DNA of 49,279 nucleotides from a virus, in IMG/VR virus record IMGVR_UViG_3300027749_000163, positions 1 through 49,279 of that record. One strand, given 5' to 3'. Below the pieces are notes generated by a model. The model searched no databases. It saw only the letters and a list, made by a program, of their open reading frames with translations, and had not been told where the DNA came from. Both the position numbers and the translations under genes were made by a program. How positions within the stretch are numbered: position 1 is the first letter of the stretch; every line of letters starts with the position of its first letter. This document shows, piece by piece, positions 1,869 to 44,040 of this stretch.

Positions 1869-2153
1869 ATGAGATTTAAAGAATTCAAAGTAGGAGACAA
1901 GGTTTTAACGAAACCTATTGAGATAAATAAAGAATTAACTAAAAACAATCTACAATGGTTAATTGACTCGGAAATCGAGGGCGCAGTAGTAGAAATCAAG
2001 AATAAAACTTTAATCTGGAAAGAAGGTAATTACTATGCTGGTAACTGGCATTACGGTATTTGGCTTCTTGGTAATTTCTCTGGCATATGGGAAAATGGCA
2101 TATGGGAGAACGGGCATTTTGACGGGAAATGGAAATCCGGAATAAAGAGCTAA
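1869..2153 (+). CDS. Small protein with W-x-x-G repeats
   Basis: 94 residues. The C-terminal half (about residues 50-90) is a ladder of Trp/Gly units such as GNWHYGIWLLGNFSGIWENG, resembling the short beta-strand repeats of MORN-like or pentapeptide-like solenoids. The N-terminus, MRFKEFKVGD, loosely resembles the MKxIKxFExF peptide found on many proteins here. An AT-rich element (aatatatattg near 1837) lies about 30 bases upstream, the spacing seen for other putative late promoters. Function unknown; a repeat-built binding or structural role is inferred. Confidence 0.6.
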   Translation: MRFKEFKVGDKVLTKPIEINKELTKNNLQWLIDSEIEGAVVEIKNKTLIWKEGNYYAGNWHYGIWLLGNFSGIWENGIWENGHFDGKWKSGIKS

Positions 2154-3532: not shown

Positions 3533-3562
3533 AAAAAGCCACTCAATGAGTGGCTTTTTTTT
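3531..3562. terminator. Bidirectional terminator between convergent genes
   Basis: Stem GCCACTC/GAGTGGC with loop AAT, flanked by an A-run on the left and a T-run on the right, so it can work on both strands. The core GCCACTCAATGAGTGGC recurs with small changes at 11817, 22049 and 45473. Confidence 0.85.
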
Positions 3563-3875
3563 ATCTTGCATAATTAGGTTTTCTATGTGTTCCTTTATTG
3601 CCATTTTTTTCTGCTTTTCTTTTACGTGCTACTGATGCCTTTCTTTGTTTTTCCGACATTTTTCCAGCAACTTTTGCTTTCCGACATTTTGGATAACCAC
3701 CTTTAGATGTGTCTGATCTACCACATGGTGGATGACTACCATCTTTATTAGTTTTGGATATATCTACCCATTTTTCTTTAAACCATTTATCGACACCACC
3801 ATGTGAATTCGCATATGGTTTTTTCTTTTCGTTTAGTTCTTCAACAAAATCTTCAAATAATTTTAAATGTTCCAT
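3561..3875 (-). CDS. Small basic protein with capsid-targeting-like N-terminus
   Basis: 104 residues. It begins MEHLKLFEDFVEELNE: the shared M-x-x-[LI]-K-x-F-E-x-F peptide followed by L-N-E, a possible prohead protease site at residue 16. The remainder is very basic. It has W-x-K-E-K-W near residue 31, then PCGR and GYPKCRKAK, then MSEKQRKASVARKRKAEK, a pattern I associate with small phage and plastid-like DUF5872-type proteins. If cleaved as predicted, the mature product would be a cationic, probably nucleic-acid-binding polypeptide. Its ATG overlaps the TAA of the upstream gene by one base (TAATG), so the two are probably cotranslated. Confidence 0.75.
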   Translation of the reverse strand: MEHLKLFEDFVEELNEKKKPYANSHGGVDKWFKEKWVDISKTNKDGSHPPCGRSDTSKGGYPKCRKAKVAGKMSEKQRKASVARKRKAEKNGNKGTHRKPNYAR

Positions 3876-4079: not shown

Positions 4080-4688
4080 TTATTTATTTTTAAGATAATT
4101 TGATACCATATCATTAATTCTTCTAGAATCAACTACCATATTATCTTCTTTACCCTCGTCTTCGCTTATATCTTCTTCAACTTGGCTTTGAACTTCATTT
4201 AATCCAAGATCTTTTCTAATTTCTTTATAAAATTTTTCCAATTCCGATTTAACTGATGTATTAAATTTTATATTTTCACGCATTTGATTCATAGTTTGAT
4301 TTACAACTTCATGCATTCTAGCATTATTTTCACCATTATCAACTTGTCTTAATTGAGATATAAAATGTTTCTTAGTCATTTTTATTAAAAATAGAGTTTC
4401 CGCATAGTTTTGTGCATCTTCTTCAACTTTATTTTTAACATAAGGATGTTCTTTTACTTTTGGCGCATCACCTAAATATAGATCGACTAGAGAATTTAAT
4501 ACCGTATCAGCACGATATTTAGAATCGACTATATCAGAATCATAATTATATATTTCTATTTCACCTAATTCAGGCAGGTCGTCCATCTTCGCAAGATACA
4601 TATTGACATCTAAGTCTTTATTATCCTCCTGTATCTTATTAAATTCTTCTTGGAGGTTGTTTATTTTGTCTGTTTTCTTATCACTCAT
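4080..4688 (-). CDS. Putative small terminase subunit (gp16-like)
   Basis: 202 residues, mostly helical and acidic. It lies directly divergent from the large terminase gene. It has the features of T4 gp16: an N-terminal acidic stretch with DLPELGEIEIYNYDSD (compare the DLPGIDGEEIKVYEP phrase of T4 gp16), a central helical pair that would form the oligomer, and an acidic tail. In T4-type phages this subunit forms a ring that regulates the ATPase and recognises packaging DNA. The assignment rests on this phrase, size and position, not on strong identity; an unrelated coiled-coil protein remains possible. Confidence 0.55.
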   Translation of the reverse strand: MSDKKTDKINNLQEEFNKIQEDNKDLDVNMYLAKMDDLPELGEIEIYNYDSDIVDSKYRADTVLNSLVDLYLGDAPKVKEHPYVKNKVEEDAQNYAETLFLIKMTKKHFISQLRQVDNGENNARMHEVVNQTMNQMRENIKFNTSVKSELEKFYKEIRKDLGLNEVQSQVEEDISEDEGKEDNMVVDSRRINDMVSNYLKNK

Positions 4689-4706
4689 AGGAGTTTTGAT
4701 TTTTAC

Positions 4707-4717
4707 TATATATATAA
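4707..4717 (+). promoter_or_regulatory. Putative late promoter for terL
   Basis: TATATATATAA lies 26 bases before the terminase ATG with no visible -35 box. It belongs to the TATATA-type set described in the findings. Confidence 0.4.
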
Positions 4718-4732
4718 AAAAACATATTTCTT

Positions 4733-5269
4733 ATGGCAACTGCGAAAAAGCAACAACAAGAAGAAGAAAACAAAAAATTTGTATTTACTAGTAAAAATAT
4801 AACCGAAATAACAGAACAACTTAGTGATGGTATAATACTCAAAAGGTATCAAAATCCATGGCTCAAAAATGAAGTAGGTATAAGAAGAGCTGGTATATCA
4901 TTTGGTATATCACCTGAAGAGGTTCAAGAATATATTAGATGTATGGATGACGTGCAATATTTTGCTGAAAGATATTGTCAAATTAAAAGAGAAGATGGTT
5001 CTATTGGGCCTATAAAATTAAGAGATTATCAGAGAGGTATATTAGATTTATATAAAAATAATCGTGTTATATTATGCGCTAGTCGCCAGTCAGGTAAGTG
5101 TGCCACTGGACAGAGTGGAATAGTAATAGAAAATTCCAATATTAAAACATTGAGCGAATTATACTACACATTGTTATCTTCATATAGAAAATTAACATTT
5201 TTGGAAAAAATAAAAATAAAATTATATAAATTACTTACCCATTTAGACAACATGCACACAAAAATTTAA
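4733..5269 (+). CDS. terL (N-part): Large terminase N-terminal part with N-half of a split intein
   Basis: 178 residues. Residues 1-122 are the N-extein of a gp17-like packaging ATPase: a short Gln/Glu-rich start, an adenine-binding region with LRDYQRGILDLYKNNR (about 96-111) and the Walker A beginning ASRQSGK (116-122). Instead of the expected Thr the sequence continues with Cys123, the first residue of an intein (CATGQSGIVIENSNIKTLSE), and stops 56 residues later. The partner half is encoded at 6751. Trans-splicing would join K122 to T144 of the downstream protein and recreate GKT. Neither half alone has a complete Walker A motif, so splicing should be needed for DNA packaging. Confidence 0.92.
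   Translation: MATAKKQQQEEENKKFVFTSKNITEITEQLSDGIILKRYQNPWLKNEVGIRRAGISFGISPEEVQEYIRCMDDVQYFAERYCQIKREDGSIGPIKLRDYQRGILDLYKNNRVILCASRQSGKCATGQSGIVIENSNIKTLSELYYTLLSSYRKLTFLEKIKIKLYKLLTHLDNMHTKI
5099..5266 (+). other. Split intein N-fragment
   Basis: 56 residues starting at Cys (TGT at 5099). Block A is recognisable (C-x-x-G...V-x-I-E...I-K-T-x-S-E-L-Y), but block B is missing here and is found on the C-fragment instead. This places the split unusually early, as in the metagenomic AceL-TerL and VidaL inteins, which also carry a short N-fragment. The last ~30 residues are Lys-rich helix. Confidence 0.88.
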
Positions 5270-5292
5270 TATATAATAAAAAGGAAATTATT

Positions 5293-6309
5293 ATGATATT
5301 AGAAAATGTTAAAATTTTAGACAACGAAGAAAAAATCACATGTAGATTATGTGGCGCAAGAATGAAAAGAGTATATGGAAAACATATGGAAAATCATGCA
5401 AAGGAAGATGGAATTGATATAAAAACGTATCGAACTATGTATCCGAACGCTCCAATTCAAACTGAAGCAGATCATAAAGCAAATAGTAAATCTTCTGGAC
5501 TACATATGAAAGAACAAAAATACAAAGATATGTTTTCTGAAAAAATTAAAGGTAATAATAATCCAAATCATAAATTAAATACAACAGAAAAGGAAAGAAA
5601 AGAACGAAGTCCATTTTCGAAAGAATTTGTGGGATATAAAAATTTAGAGGAAGTAAACAAACAAAGTGCCGCAAGTAAATTATCAAAAGATGTAGCTAAA
5701 ATAAGGTTATCAACAGCACAAACTGAGTATTGGATTAAAAAAGGATTTAATTTAGAAGATGCTAAATTAAAAGTATCTGAAAGACAAAAAACATTTACAT
5801 TAGATTTATGCATAGAAAAATATGGAGAAGAAAACGGTAGACAAGTTTATACAGATAGACAAAATAGATGGCAGACAAGTTTATTAACTAATGGTAATTT
5901 AAAGTATGGTTATTCTAATGCTAGTCAGGAATTATTTTTAGAAATAATTAAAAATTATAAAAATATTAAAGAATTATCAAAAGTATATTTCGCTACAAAA
6001 AATAATGAACATAAAATTGATAAAAAAGAAGGTGGTATTTGGATATTTGATTTTGCAGATATTAGTAGGGGTAAATTTATAGAATATAATGGTGATAGAT
6101 ATCATGCTAATCCATTATTATATAATGAAAATGATTTTCCACATCCTTTCAGAAAAGGATTTAGTGCAAAATTTTTATGGCAAAAAGATGCAAATAAAAT
6201 TGCGGATGCTGCAAACATTGGTTTTGAAGTTTTAACTATATGGGATTCTGAGTATAAAAAAGATAAAATCGGTACTCTACAAAAATGTTTAGATTTTTTA
6301 AATATATAA
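5293..6309 (+). CDS. Free-standing homing endonuclease, Vsr-like (EDxHD type)
   Basis: 338 residues. The N-terminus holds a Ros/MucR-like zinc finger (C17, C20, H31, H35) followed by a Lys-rich linker. A middle segment (about 170-200) has the CIEKYGEENG phrase often seen in phage endonucleases. The C-terminal ~90 residues have the PD-(D/E)xK fold signature of very-short-patch-repair nucleases: FDFADI, then FIEYNGDRYHANP (E264, D268, H271), then WQKDANKI (D299) and EVLTIWDSEY. Such enzymes are known between the halves of fractured phage genes that carry split inteins. It probably cuts intein-free terL near the Walker A codons and spreads this arrangement. The ATG at 5293 follows an A-rich leader, and atatataata lies 20 bases upstream. 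Confidence 0.85.
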   Translation: MILENVKILDNEEKITCRLCGARMKRVYGKHMENHAKEDGIDIKTYRTMYPNAPIQTEADHKANSKSSGLHMKEQKYKDMFSEKIKGNNNPNHKLNTTEKERKERSPFSKEFVGYKNLEEVNKQSAASKLSKDVAKIRLSTAQTEYWIKKGFNLEDAKLKVSERQKTFTLDLCIEKYGEENGRQVYTDRQNRWQTSLLTNGNLKYGYSNASQELFLEIIKNYKNIKELSKVYFATKNNEHKIDKKEGGIWIFDFADISRGKFIEYNGDRYHANPLLYNENDFPHPFRKGFSAKFLWQKDANKIADAANIGFEVLTIWDSEYKKDKIGTLQKCLDFLNI

Positions 6310-6312
6310 CTA

Positions 6313-6711
6313 ATGAAATATATAAAATTATTTGAAGATTATGAGAATAAATTAACTAAAGAAATGATAATTAATTTATTCGTAAATGCATTAGAAGGAG
6401 GTTCTAATTATTGGTATTATTTAAAAGATATACCTAATGAAGTAAAAAACATAATGAGTAAGAAACATATAGCTACATCTGAGGCGATAGGAGAATTTAT
6501 ATTAAATGGTGGTGAAATACATATTTATGATATAGAAGATGAAGATGATTTATTAGGTAGTATAAATATGAATAATTTACTAGATGCTATAAATACGATG
6601 AAAAAAGAATATTCAGCAAATTACTTAAATATAGTTAGCGAAACTGATGATGCAGAGGATGCGGATATATTTTTACAAATAGCTACTATGGGAAAAATTG
6701 TATTTGGATAA
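6313..6711 (+). CDS. Passenger protein inside the split terL locus
   Basis: 132 residues beginning MKYIKLFEDY, the capsid-targeting-like peptide shared by many genes in the window. The body contains ALEGGSNYWYYL and SEAIGEFILNGGEIHIYDIE followed by an acidic segment. I have seen this type of small domain (xALEGGxNYW) in phage proteins, always without assigned function. It starts three bases after the endonuclease stop, so it is co-transcribed with it. Why a virion-type gene should lie between the two terminase halves is unclear; it may be ancestral neighbourhood trapped by a rearrangement or cargo carried along by homing. Confidence 0.75.
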   Translation: MKYIKLFEDYENKLTKEMIINLFVNALEGGSNYWYYLKDIPNEVKNIMSKKHIATSEAIGEFILNGGEIHIYDIEDEDDLLGSINMNNLLDAINTMKKEYSANYLNIVSETDDAEDADIFLQIATMGKIVFG

Positions 6712-6712
6712 T

Positions 6713-6751
6713 ATGAAATTATTTGAGGTATATAAAAAACATTTAAAATAA
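6713..6751 (+). CDS. 12-residue mini-ORF, possible remnant
   Basis: The reading frame MKLFEVYKKHLK begins one base after the previous stop, and its TAA overlaps the next ATG (TAATG). It reads like a decayed MKxIKLFExF peptide. It may be a remnant of a lost gene or may couple translation into the C-terminal terminase part. No function can be claimed. Confidence 0.3.
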   Translation: MKLFEVYKKHLK

Positions 6752-7179
6752 TGATAAAAAAAATAATATATTTCTTAATACAATTAATTGAGAAATACGA
6801 ATACAGGAATCTTTCATTAGATGAAGAAGATATAAATAAGAAGATACTAAATACAATATCTGGATTAAATATTAAGGTTAAAACTGATACTGGATATGAA
6901 AAAGCAACTGATATACATCTAACACAGCCTTACAAAGTATATGAAATTATACTAGATAATGGTTATCAATTAGAATGTGCTGATAATCATATTTTATTTG
7001 ATGAAAATTTTAATCAAATATTTTGTCAAGATTTAGCTATTAATTCTTATATACAAACTGATTTAGGTTTATCAAAAGTTATTAGAATAAATAAATCTAA
7101 ATGTAAGTTAAGTATGTTTGACTTAACAATTGATCATCCCAATCACAGATTTTATACAAATGGCATATTAAGTCATAAT
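6751..7179 (+). other. Split intein C-fragment
   Basis: 143 residues ending in His-Asn. Block B (DNGYQLECADNHILF, about 69-83) and blocks F/G (DHPNHRFYTNGILSHN) are both present. A leading ~30-residue charged helix may serve to associate with the N-fragment. Having block B on the C-fragment makes this an atypical split. Confidence 0.88.
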
Positions 7180-8964
7180 ACAATTAATGCAGCAATTTCA
7201 ATTTTGCATTTTATTACTTTTAATAATGATAAAAATGTAATGATTGTGGCGAATCTTAGAGATACTACTATTGAAATTGTAGATAAAATTAAATCTATTT
7301 ATGTAAATTTACCATTCTTTTTAAAGGTTGGTATTAAAGGTTGGAATCAAAAATCTATGGTTTGTGAAAATGGTTGTAAAATTAGAACAGCAGCGAGAAG
7401 TAAGACACCAGCGATTGGTTTCACAATTGACTTCTTATATTTGGATGAATTTGCGCACATTCCTTCTAATATTATAGAACCATATTATACCGCAGTATAT
7501 CCAATTGTTGCGGCTGTTAATAACTCCAAAATAATCATAACTTCAACACCAAAAGGAATGAATTTATTTTATAAATTATTAACTGATTCTGAAAGATCGG
7601 AATTAGATCCACTGAAAACAAATTTTAAATCTAAAAGAATATATTGGTATGAAGTAGAAGGAAGATTTGTAACATATTTTAGACTTTTTGAAAATAAATT
7701 ATTTGAACATGGTTTGACAAAAGAAGAAGTATTTGAACAAGTTAAAGCGGCATTTCCACAAACTAAAGTAGAAATGAATTATATAGCTGATTTAGAAAAA
7801 CATGTTGTTTATATTTATAATAAACATAATGGTGTTTTAGTTCCTTCTGAAGATGTTAAAAAGTTTATAGTTGAAAAAGATGGTAAACAAATCTTTATAC
7901 AACAATTAGCCTATGTTACAACGTGGCAAGAAGAAACTACCAAAGAAATTGGTGGTGAAGATGCATTTAATCAAGAATTCGCATTGAGATTTGTTGATGG
8001 TTCACGTTCATTATTAAACGAAGCGTTAATTGACGAATTATTGAAGAATAAAAAAGATTATGTTCATTATCCATCATACGAGTTTGATAGAAGATTGAAG
8101 TTTAATTATGAAGATTTACAATTTGTGGATGATACTAAAATTTTCTCACCATTAGATAGAAATAAAATTAAAGGTATATTCTCAATCGATATATCGGAAG
8201 GACTAGGACAAGATTACTCAGTTATTAACATGTTTAGAATTGCACCAAAACCAATGGAAATTATTGATATGTATAAAAAAGAATATAGGTATATATCGGA
8301 CTTTTTTTACTTACAACAATTTGGTATGTATAGATCTAATTTAGTATCTGTTAAGCAATTGGCTGAATTATTCTATGTATTAGCATTTGAATATTTTAAT
8401 CCTGAGAATTTTAAAGCTGTTATTGAATATAACACATATGGTATGCCATTTTTAGCAGAATTACCACATTTATTTGACGGTAATAATCAATATGGTTCAG
8501 GTATATTTTATAGATATAAACATAGAGTAGATTCGGAAGAAGAAAAAATTGGATTAAGAATAACTTCTACTAAAGAGATATTAGTAAAAGATTATCAAGA
8601 AAATATGAATAAAAGAAATTTTGATATAAACCACCCTACTAATATAAATGAAATTACTACATTTATCAAACATGTTTTACCTTCTGGTAATATAAGATAT
8701 GCCGCTGATACTGGCAATGATGATACTGTAATGAGTATAGTAAATGCATCTAGCGTTTTTTCTAAATTTATGTTTAGAGAAATGGTTGAATCAGCTGCTC
8801 CTGAATTAGTCGATTCGGCTACATTGAAATATTTTAATGATATACTAAAAAATCAAGAACAAGAAGATTATGGTAGTAACCATGATTATGACATATTAAC
8901 AAATGTAAATAAGCAAAGGAAATTCATGAATCAATATGGAATAAGAAATCGTAATAGTTGGTAA
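6751..8964 (+). CDS. terL (C-part): Large terminase C-terminal part with C-half of a split intein
   Basis: 737 residues. Residues 1-143 are the intein C-fragment, ending in FYTNGILSHN; Thr144 is the +1 extein residue. The C-extein has the rest of a gp17-type motor. Walker B FLYLDEFAH is at about 228-236 and the coupling motif TSTPKG at about 264-269. The RNase H-like nuclease acids are D480 (FSIDISEGLGQDYS), E559 (AVIEYNTYG) and D657/D658 (NDDTVMS). With the N-part the spliced protein would be about 716 residues, longer than T4 gp17 (610); a stretch around 300-400 looks like added sequence. The ATG at 6751 was chosen because the intein homology starts soon after it. Confidence 0.92.
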   Translation: MIKKIIYFLIQLIEKYEYRNLSLDEEDINKKILNTISGLNIKVKTDTGYEKATDIHLTQPYKVYEIILDNGYQLECADNHILFDENFNQIFCQDLAINSYIQTDLGLSKVIRINKSKCKLSMFDLTIDHPNHRFYTNGILSHNTINAAISILHFITFNNDKNVMIVANLRDTTIEIVDKIKSIYVNLPFFLKVGIKGWNQKSMVCENGCKIRTAARSKTPAIGFTIDFLYLDEFAHIPSNIIEPYYTAVYPIVAAVNNSKIIITSTPKGMNLFYKLLTDSERSELDPLKTNFKSKRIYWYEVEGRFVTYFRLFENKLFEHGLTKEEVFEQVKAAFPQTKVEMNYIADLEKHVVYIYNKHNGVLVPSEDVKKFIVEKDGKQIFIQQLAYVTTWQEETTKEIGGEDAFNQEFALRFVDGSRSLLNEALIDELLKNKKDYVHYPSYEFDRRLKFNYEDLQFVDDTKIFSPLDRNKIKGIFSIDISEGLGQDYSVINMFRIAPKPMEIIDMYKKEYRYISDFFYLQQFGMYRSNLVSVKQLAELFYVLAFEYFNPENFKAVIEYNTYGMPFLAELPHLFDGNNQYGSGIFYRYKHRVDSEEEKIGLRITSTKEILVKDYQENMNKRNFDINHPTNINEITTFIKHVLPSGNIRYAADTGNDDTVMSIVNASSVFSKFMFREMVESAAPELVDSATLKYFNDILKNQEQEDYGSNHDYDILTNVNKQRKFMNQYGIRNRNSW

Positions 8965-8967
8965 CTA

Positions 8968-9246
8968 TTACGATTCTTCCAATGTCACTGTTAATTCACA
9001 TGCAGATAATTTATTATAAATTATCTGCATTTTTTCTTTATCACCTCTTTTAACATCACATTTACCTTTAAAGTGTATTAAATAGGTACATTGCTCGGCT
9101 TGTTCTTTTTGATGTCCAGCATGTTTAATTAAACAATCAATAACATAATCGAAGCTATGTATATCATCGTTCCATACTATAATTACATATGGATAATTTA
9201 TTATCTCTTCCAATTCTGGACTTTCCAGCTCTTTAATTTTGCCCAT
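8968..9246 (-). CDS. clpS: ClpS-like adaptor for Clp protease
   Basis: 92 residues. ClpS delivers N-degron substrates to ClpAP/ClpCP in the cytoplasm. The signature is clear: YVIIVWNDDIHSFDYVI, then GHQKEQAEQCTYLIHFKGKC and a final CELTVTLEES. N26, D27 and H58 have the same spacing as the E. coli N-degron pocket residues N34, D35 and H66. The gatekeeper Met40 of E. coli is Phe32 here, which could change side-chain preference. It overlaps the upstream UVR-domain gene by 14 bases, so they form one operon. ClpS in a phage is unusual. Confidence 0.85.
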   Translation of the reverse strand: MGKIKELESPELEEIINYPYVIIVWNDDIHSFDYVIDCLIKHAGHQKEQAEQCTYLIHFKGKCDVKRGDKEKMQIIYNKLSACELTVTLEES

Positions 9247-13407: not shown

Positions 13408-13437
13408 AAATTGTCCTATTTTATAGGGCAATTTTTT
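13406..13437. terminator. Bidirectional terminator
   Basis: Hairpin AAATTGTCCTAT/ATAGGGCAATTT with one G-U pair and loop TTT, flanked by A and T runs, between convergent genes. Confidence 0.75.
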
Positions 13438-14027
13438 GCTGAGTAAATATATTTATCATTTTTAAGTATTTTTAATCCGAGTGCTTTAGCTGCAATCATC
13501 ACATCTAATATACACTCATTTTCTGCACCACCAACTATTACAATTTCTTCTCCTTTTATAGATTTAAATATATTATATAATTTAATTGGACAGTGAAACC
13601 ACTTATGATTATTACCTATATAAACTATAATAGTCCCTTCTGTAGTTTCGAAGTATTCACCTCTTTGTATATTACCTTCTTTAGATTTTATAGTATTATA
13701 TGTATCTTCTGATAAAATTTTCTTATAATAATCTGCATTAACATTATAGTTATATCTTTTTTCGATTAAATCTATTTGGTTATTGAATCTATATAAATCA
13801 TCTTTATTTTCTATATCTGGTGTTTCATCATATAAGAAATCTTTATCAGGATTTTTTCCGTCATGGTGATTATCGAATATTTGATAAACTTTATCAAAAT
13901 CACTACAATAGGTATTTAGAGCTGCTAAATAATTTTTATTAAAAAACTTTTCAAAAGATTTTTGAACGTCAACTATAATAAGAATTCTATTCTTGGAAAA
14001 ATTTTCAAATAATTTAATATACCTCAT
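13416..14027 (-). CDS. Isochorismatase-like cysteine hydrolase with capsid-targeting-like N-terminus
   Basis: 203 residues. MRYIKLFENF is the shared N-terminal peptide; the enzyme domain starts directly after it (ILIIVDVQKSF, catalytic D20). The nucleophile region is GGAENECILDVMIAAKALGL with C172, as in nicotinamidase/isochorismatase-type hydrolases. A catalytic Lys is expected in the middle third, but I cannot place it firmly. If the N-terminal peptide targets the prohead, this would be an enzyme packaged in the head and delivered with the DNA. Substrate unknown; an NAD-related amide is one possibility. Confidence 0.72.
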   Translation of the reverse strand: MRYIKLFENFSKNRILIIVDVQKSFEKFFNKNYLAALNTYCSDFDKVYQIFDNHHDGKNPDKDFLYDETPDIENKDDLYRFNNQIDLIEKRYNYNVNADYYKKILSEDTYNTIKSKEGNIQRGEYFETTEGTIIVYIGNNHKWFHCPIKLYNIFKSIKGEEIVIVGGAENECILDVMIAAKALGLKILKNDKYIYSAKNCPIK

Positions 14028-43728: not shown

Positions 43729-44040
43729 ATGGAATTTGAAGAATTTGAAGATTACGATTTGTCAATAGATGAAATTGACGAAATAAAAGAAATAGCAAGC
43801 CAAATTAGGCGAACTACCACTATTACTAACCTTTGTGTAGCTGTTAATAAGCATCACCAAATAGTATTGGAATTAGAAATAGAAAAATGTGAAACAATGT
43901 ATTCAATTATGAATATAATGAACAACATAAAAGAAATACAGGCTGCATATATGCCGGATTTCGATTGTTTATTCGAAATGTGGATGTATAGACAAAAACC
44001 TGTTATTTACTGCACTTATGAAAGATATAAAACTAACTAA
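43729..44040 (+). CDS. Small acidic hypothetical protein
   Basis: 103 residues. Acidic start (MEFEEFEDYDLSIDEIDEIK) reminiscent of the shared FExF peptide but without the basic residues, followed by a small alpha/beta domain rich in Met/Ile (ETMYSIMNIMNNIKEIQ). Co-transcribed with the peptidase; overlaps the next gene by 23 bases. Function unknown. Confidence 0.6.
   Translation: MEFEEFEDYDLSIDEIDEIKEIASQIRRTTTITNLCVAVNKHHQIVLELEIEKCETMYSIMNIMNNIKEIQAAYMPDFDCLFEMWMYRQKPVIYCTYERYKTN

Follow-up and report, generated by a model that had tools for sequence, protein, structure and literature searches.

The divided terL locus

We analyzed a 49,279-nucleotide stretch of viral DNA (IMG/VR record IMGVR_UViG_3300027749_000163; hereafter the window) in which the gene for a T4-like large terminase (TerL) is distributed over two open reading frames (ORFs). 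The N-half occupies positions 4733-5269 (178 amino acids, aa) and the C-half positions 6751-8964 (737 aa). The two ORFs are 1,481 nucleotides (nt) apart and each has its own start and stop codon, so that the fragments of the intein they carry lie on separate genes, as in naturally split inteins. The features of the locus are as follows.

4733..5098, + strand: TerL N-extein, 122 aa, ending in ILCASRQSGK, the first part of Walker A (ORF and phrog_5989 match; boundary the same in 52 empty-site homologues)
5099..5266, + strand: intein N-fragment (IntN), 56 aa, with Cys1 and block A CATGQSGIVIEN at 5099-5134 (stop codon 5267-5269; Cys1 in 54/54 split homologues)
5192..5245, + strand: predicted N-tail helix LTFLEKIKIKLYKLLTHL, conserved, N-terminal piece of a bisected helix (alignment, mapped on helix 42-73 of the model of an unsplit relative, L093)
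5293..6309, + strand: free-standing gene of the homing-endonuclease type, 338 aa (profile, AlphaFold, and Foldseek results; DUF559 match in the homologue from L061)
6313..6711, + strand: 132-aa ORF, phrog_2355, without assigned function, cargo between the halves
6751..7179, + strand: intein C-fragment (IntC), 143 aa, with block B GYQLECADNHILF at 6961-6999, block F MFDLTIDHPNHRFYTNG at 7114-7164, and block G ILSHN at 7165-7179
6751..6810, + strand: predicted C-fragment head helix MIKKIIYFLIQLIEKYEYRN, conserved, C-terminal piece of the bisected helix (alignments and L093 model)
7180..8961, + strand: TerL C-extein, 594 aa, from Thr+1, which completes GK|T; remaining ATPase and nuclease domain (stop codon 8962-8964)

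After SRQSGK, the N-half continues with 56 aa that begin with Cys, and the C-half consists of 143 aa ending in FYTNGILSHN and then 594 aa starting with TINAA. Together, the two exteins (122 + 594 residues) amount to a T4-like TerL of 716 aa in which GKT is intact. Matches were to the TerL family phrog_5989 for the N-half (1.7e-15), to Pfam Terminase_6N for the C-half (2.3e-11), and to T4 gp17 for the C-extein (1.7e-23). A match of the C-half to Pfam Intein_splicing (7.8e-7) is below the cutoff of that family. All four ORFs are open and lie on one strand, separated by gaps of 23, 3, and 39 nt. The same arrangement is present in a second contig (L001) at 99-100% protein identity. In the initial set of other cassettes, no homologue of the 132-aa ORF was found at the same position.

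Intein motifs and catalytic residues

A profile of the C-fragment matches the solved inteins VidaL (7.6e-11), CatC (an atypically split consensus intein; 3.7e-9), and gp41-1 (1.3e-8). Block A is located on the N-half, and blocks B, F, and G are on the C-half, which places the split between blocks A and B, as in atypically split inteins. Conservation of the catalytic residues was assessed in an alignment of 50 rows, comprising 48 split C-fragments and two unsplit inteins. The C-terminal Asn, Thr+1, the block B His, and the block F His are each present in 50/50 rows, the penultimate His is present in 49/50, and Cys1 is kept in 54/54 split loci. These are the residues of a class 1 intein. Exceptions encountered in block G are LN-T (L040), SQ-T (L042), and SN-T (L101). 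The strict conservation of the catalytic residues suggests that the halves undergo trans-splicing.

Long-range ratios of nonsynonymous to synonymous substitution (dN/dS, omega) are saturated, and only a few close pairs were used. In L069/L070, a close pair that lacks the endonuclease gene, omega is 0.14 for IntN, 0.38 for IntC, and 0.06-0.08 for the exteins, indicating that both intein fragments of this pair are under purifying selection. The distances among IntN sequences and among IntC sequences remain correlated after extein distance has been removed (partial Mantel r 0.48, p 0.0005), a relationship that co-transfer can produce as well as co-adaptation.

The position of the break

IntN is 46-72 aa long among 51 homologues (median 55; 56 in the window), and IntC measures ∼143-150 aa in the family (143 in the window). 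Natural atypically split inteins reportedly have an IntN of 15-37 aa and are broken after beta2 (VidaL, PolB16) or after helix 1 (AceL-TerL, GOS-TerL) (PMC13014065). The IntN lengths observed here are outside this range.

In the unsplit relative L093, the sequences corresponding to the tail of the N-fragment (N-tail) and the head of the C-fragment (C-head) are directly joined. The fold was assessed on L093 rather than on the halves of the window, with an alignment of unsplit sequences and C-fragments from which two phage-record rows were left out. The resulting AlphaFold model has a predicted HINT fold (predicted local distance difference test score, pLDDT, 84.9). Its top match in the PDB is VidaL (E 1.5e-7, prob 1.00); the Cat intein is also among the best structural matches, and many other inteins were matched. 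The model includes an extra predicted helix of 32 residues (residues 42-73). Because the first Met of the C-half in the window aligns at model residue 57, the fracture would bisect this helix, and the halves would carry its two pieces.

These pieces probably serve in docking of the halves. The N-tail always has a net positive charge (mean +3.5 over the last 32 residues), and the C-head is weakly positive on average (+1.8). Since both are positive, simple charge pairing is not a likely docking principle, and hydrophobic contact between the helices seems more plausible.

Much of this layout had been proposed in a preliminary description of the locus. The ORFs agree exactly with its two-ORF TerL, its coordinates, and its junctions (ASRQSGK/Cys, and SHN/Thr restoring GKT). 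The joined length of ∼716 residues, the 56-residue intein N-fragment, and a split before block B were likewise correct. The same description proposed a basic tail and a helix as association elements. Both are conserved and form one continuous predicted helix in the unsplit relative, which fits an association role and does not prove it. Passed over were the two ORFs between the halves, the 338-aa one being a nuclease of the homing-endonuclease type.

An endonuclease-type gene between the halves

The 338-aa protein has an N-terminal Cys/His zinc-finger-like segment, a middle DNA-binding region, and a C-terminal Vsr-like/EDxHD nuclease domain (∼5899-6306). Its family profile matches 3r3p (the EDxHD catalytic domain of I-Bth0305I) at 0.0034 and 3hrl (Vsr-like) at 0.005, with a weak match to the Ros zinc finger 2jsp (0.25). 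The C-terminal 130 residues of an AlphaFold model of the protein mostly have pLDDT >90, and a Foldseek search with this model gave 1vsr (Vsr; prob 0.97) and 3r3p (prob 0.96). The homologue in L061 matches DUF559 (1.1e-6). Domain homology to I-Bth0305I and Vsr, at modest E values, points to a Vsr-like/EDxHD homing endonuclease.

A split intein with a free-standing gene for a Vsr-like/EDxHD endonuclease between its parts constitutes a fractured gene, an arrangement named by Dassa et al. 2009, as relayed in PMC12350094, PMC13014065, and PMC6892783. The endonuclease gene between the terL halves makes the locus a homing cassette of the fractured-gene kind and accounts for the presence of the insertion.

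Distribution of the intein and its variants

The C-intein profile matches at least 351 viral contigs, and relatives were examined among the best 80 of these. Among 84,980 cellular genomes, none matched the intein C-fragment profile, so no host can be linked to the phage by that route.

We classed 112 distinct TerL loci by their N-half; because the sample is biased by the queries, the counts are not prevalences. Empty sites, in which T follows GK directly (gap 0), account for 52 loci, and 54 are fractured. Two loci (L093 and L112) carry the same intein uninterrupted in one frame, one (L002) has an unrelated LAGLIDADG maxi-intein at the same codons, and three are without class. A search for further unsplit relatives with L093 returned only its own contig and one partial match. 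The same endonuclease family is present in 40 of the 54 fractured loci (39 in line, one reversed), and none is recognizable in the other 14. The huge phage LR756500 has the same gene order, including the endonuclease. In LR756501 (735 kb), an intact TerL N-half is located ∼12 kb upstream of the C-half, and block G reads LN-T.

Several variants were observed. The intein of L002 (4723-7917), whose TerL is a close relative (exteins 82-85% identical), starts with Ala at the exact GK|T codons, indicating that the site attracts different inteins. Additional insertions in the C-extein occur in L006:5959-9282, L011:5971-9294, and L076:5968-9336, near residue 515 in L006 and L011. In L006 the inserted element is a contiguous intein that includes a LAGLIDADG endonuclease, and this TerL would thus need one trans-splicing and one cis-splicing step. 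In L030 (1797-3527, − strand), the middle of the cassette is a different gene on the opposite strand that encodes a 576-aa DUF7487 protein. L056 and L060 have internal repeats in the cassette middle, which may mean a gene similar to that of L030. By eye, what looks like a leftover of the endonuclease C-terminus (WNKDPKQTLKKCIKFLND) closes the N-half of L101. LR756501 (L212, L040, L045) has another TerL-like ORF (L213:1855-3027), which lacks a normal P-loop.

Gain, loss, and exchange of the cassette

Close relatives that differ at the site are informative about mobility. The flanks of L006 and L010 are 98.3% (900 nt) and 96.7% (1101 nt) identical, and the two loci differ by exactly 2,174 bp, carried by L006 between the GK and T codons. 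The upstream region and both exteins of L075 and L090 are 97-99.5% identical, whereas IntN and IntC are 57% and 67% identical, respectively. Over the first 400 nt, their endonuclease genes are for the most part 93-98% identical, but in the final 500 nt identity is mostly 45-70%. L060 and L072 share an N-half, including IntN, that is 96-99.7% alike, whereas the middle (51%) and IntC (70%) differ. This last pair indicates that pieces of the cassette can be exchanged separately. Gain or loss of the cassette and its swapping at one codon position are footprints of the kind that homing and recombination should leave.

Interpretation and alternatives

The exact boundaries, the broken P-loop, the class 1 residues, the endonuclease-type gene, the empty sites, and the gain, loss, and swapping of cassettes can be read directly in the sequences. 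Very probably, the locus represents a mobile cassette of the fractured-gene kind, inserted in a T4-like phage TerL at the GK|T codons of Walker A, with TerL halves that trans-splice and an endonuclease that spreads the cassette. Apparently undescribed, it is a large branch of a known kind and not a one-off.

In the proposed mechanism, the two TerL-half proteins would be translated separately and would dock through the HINT core and the two pieces of the bisected helix. Class 1 trans-splicing would then proceed by an N-S acyl shift at Cys1, transesterification to Thr+1, and cyclization of Asn143. The product would be the 716-aa TerL, and the ATP-binding P-loop SRQSGKT would exist only after splicing. 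The phage would probably have to join its two TerL halves before packaging DNA, and the dependence of packaging on trans-splicing in the preliminary description is consistent with this scheme. The endonuclease is proposed to cut the cassette-free terL of a co-infecting phage, whereupon the whole cassette would be copied in. If the endonuclease were later lost, the fractured state would stay, because both halves would still be needed and the split intein would still restore TerL.

Some observations weigh against this interpretation. For every member of the family, splicing is something we infer from sequence. L040 is without the penultimate His, and block B reads ADNH, in which Ala replaces the usual Thr, although VidaL also has Ala there (CAFNH). 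The L093 model represents a naturally unsplit relative, and its N-part was covered by two sequences only. The scores behind the nuclease assignment are modest (profile E 0.003; Foldseek prob 0.96-0.97 but E 0.02-0.1). That empty-site terL is cut is a proposal based on the population footprints.

A further possibility is that these inteins form a distinct class, in which the fragments recognize each other by two pieces of one long, fracture-bisected helix added to the HINT core. Such a pair would stay functional after loss of the endonuclease, even when its genes are ∼12 kb apart, and P-loop assembly would become a post-translational step involving two genes. We advance this idea tentatively and consider it somewhat less probable than not.

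Genes can also exist in pieces without splicing. Insertion of an endonuclease gene might have broken terL, with the two products forming a working noncovalent complex in which the intein pieces are remnants or act as docking domains. Phage ribonucleotide reductase provides a precedent (Friedrich et al. 2007, as relayed in PMC3322345), and the altered block G and distant N-half of LR756501 are compatible with such a complex. However, the break lies within the P-loop at GK|T, where a chain break and ∼200 extra residues should abolish ATP binding. Moreover, Cys1, Asn, and the +1 Thr are kept essentially without exception in diverged pairs, and IntN and IntC are under purifying selection. We consider a nonspliced complex unlikely.

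The preliminary description had likened the intein to the AceL-TerL type and called this a rare class. If it were simply another AceL-TerL/GOS-TerL intein, with the same insertion site and architecture, then the TerL host, the split before block B, and the CatC match (the consensus of that group) would be as observed. However, AceL-TerL and GOS-TerL have IntN fragments of 25 and 37 aa, IntC fragments of 104 and 115 aa, and a +1 Cys (PMC11766414, PMC13014065). All three properties differ from those of the present family, which has Thr at +1 throughout the 50-row alignment. The resemblance therefore holds in a general manner, and the intein is a relative of AceL-TerL and GOS-TerL and not of the same type; full identity with them is quite unlikely. 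Rarity is contradicted by the 54 fractured loci and by the matches to at least 351 viral contigs, which show the intein to be widespread in environmental phage contigs.

Removal of the insertion at the RNA level, by a group I or group II intron that holds a homing endonuclease gene, is highly improbable. Introns that hold homing endonucleases are familiar from the terL genes of other phages, such as ICP1 and Jug (PMC10448857, PMC12363816), and the terL of phage IBB_35 has been published as an intein plus an intron (PMC3322345). However, an Rfam scan of positions 4400-9000 with E values up to 1 gave no match to any RNA family, including the group I and II ribozymes, and the insertion codes at either end for an intein half whose motifs are complete. 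In addition, the same intein is encoded without interruption, as a single frame, in L093 and L112.

The chance that the locus is an assembly artefact or a decayed pseudogene is negligible even for a metagenomic fragment such as the window, since L001 carries the same locus, 54 loci conserve it, and its four ORFs are open; assembly error and chance were ruled out on the first two grounds.

Implications and neighboring genes

The family offers ∼50 diverged natural split-intein pairs, possibly partly orthogonal, with an unusual split and extra docking helices, which could be useful for protein ligation tools. It also provides a rare view of how inteins become split: A single codon position shows empty, contiguous, fractured (with or without endonuclease), and dispersed states, together with near-identical empty/filled and swapped pairs. 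Annotation pipelines can overlook terL or report it truncated, since this standard phage marker gene is often divided in two. Packaging in phages with a fractured terL probably waits on protein splicing.

Other genes in the window deserve mention. Directly downstream from terL and convergent with it is a gene for a ClpS-like adaptor (8968-9246, − strand; 4.5e-16), and a glutamine synthetase homologue is encoded by the phage at 11843-13003 (− strand; Gln-synt_C 1.1e-14). A shared N-terminal motif resembling MKYIKLFEDY opens the ORFs at 1869-2153 (+), 3561-3875 (−), 6313-6711 (+), 13416-14027 (−), and 43729-44040 (+). It occurs at 5/76 N-termini versus 1/265 internal Met residues (Fisher p 0.0024) and calls to mind the T4 capsid-targeting sequence.

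Comparison with known systems

AceL-TerL and GOS-TerL share with the window intein a TerL host, a break that follows block A and the first helix (S2 region) but comes ahead of block B, and a naturally split state in environmental sequences. The window intein differs from them in its IntN of 56 aa, its IntC of 143 aa, its +1 Thr at GK|T, and the extra long helix that contains the fracture point. VidaL, also atypically split, is the closest solved structure by sequence (7.6e-11) and by fold (1.5e-7), and it has a similar block B (AxxH) and block F (HPNHRYY). In contrast, the IntN of VidaL is 16 aa, with the split directly after beta2 at the S1 position (PMC13014065), whereas the split in the window is further on, in the long second helix.

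With the fractured genes of Dassa et al. 2009, as far as these are relayed in the sources given above, the locus has in common a host gene broken by a split intein and an EDxHD-type endonuclease gene between the parts. In the window, the break is at the TerL P-loop and ahead of block B, which sets it apart from gp41-1 and NrdJ-1. These are the best-known split inteins of fractured genes, and they are broken at the canonical site after block B.

The cis mini-inteins of Ackermannviridae (VAP7, Menlow, and Kuja) occupy the same TerL GK|T codons (SGKC...SHNT) and are homologous at 31-34% identity. They are contiguous, however, with a linker in place of the long helix and no endonuclease gene within terL.

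In the TerL intein of Campylobacter phage F379 (L128), the split likewise precedes block B, and an endonuclease gene separates the two parts. The insertion in F379 and its relative WX1 (L127) is a few residues earlier (RQ|SSKST); the IntN of F379 is ∼30 aa, and its endonuclease is of the T5orf172 type. F379 has 1,155 bp with the T5orf172-type endonuclease gene where WX1 has 43 bp of contiguous intein, and the two phages are 93% identical downstream and 88% upstream. In this cultured pair, closely related phages have the contiguous and the fractured form of an intein, so that the origin of such a split is visible, and the pair offers a direct model in the laboratory for how an endonuclease gene fractures an intein. 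In Campylobacter phage IBB_35, a comparable locus was described as "an intein and an intron" (PMC3322345); a split intein would by analogy be the simpler reading there as well. Viewed against these systems, the genomic arrangement of the window locus is known and the system is not categorically new, whereas its clade and its split geometry are new.

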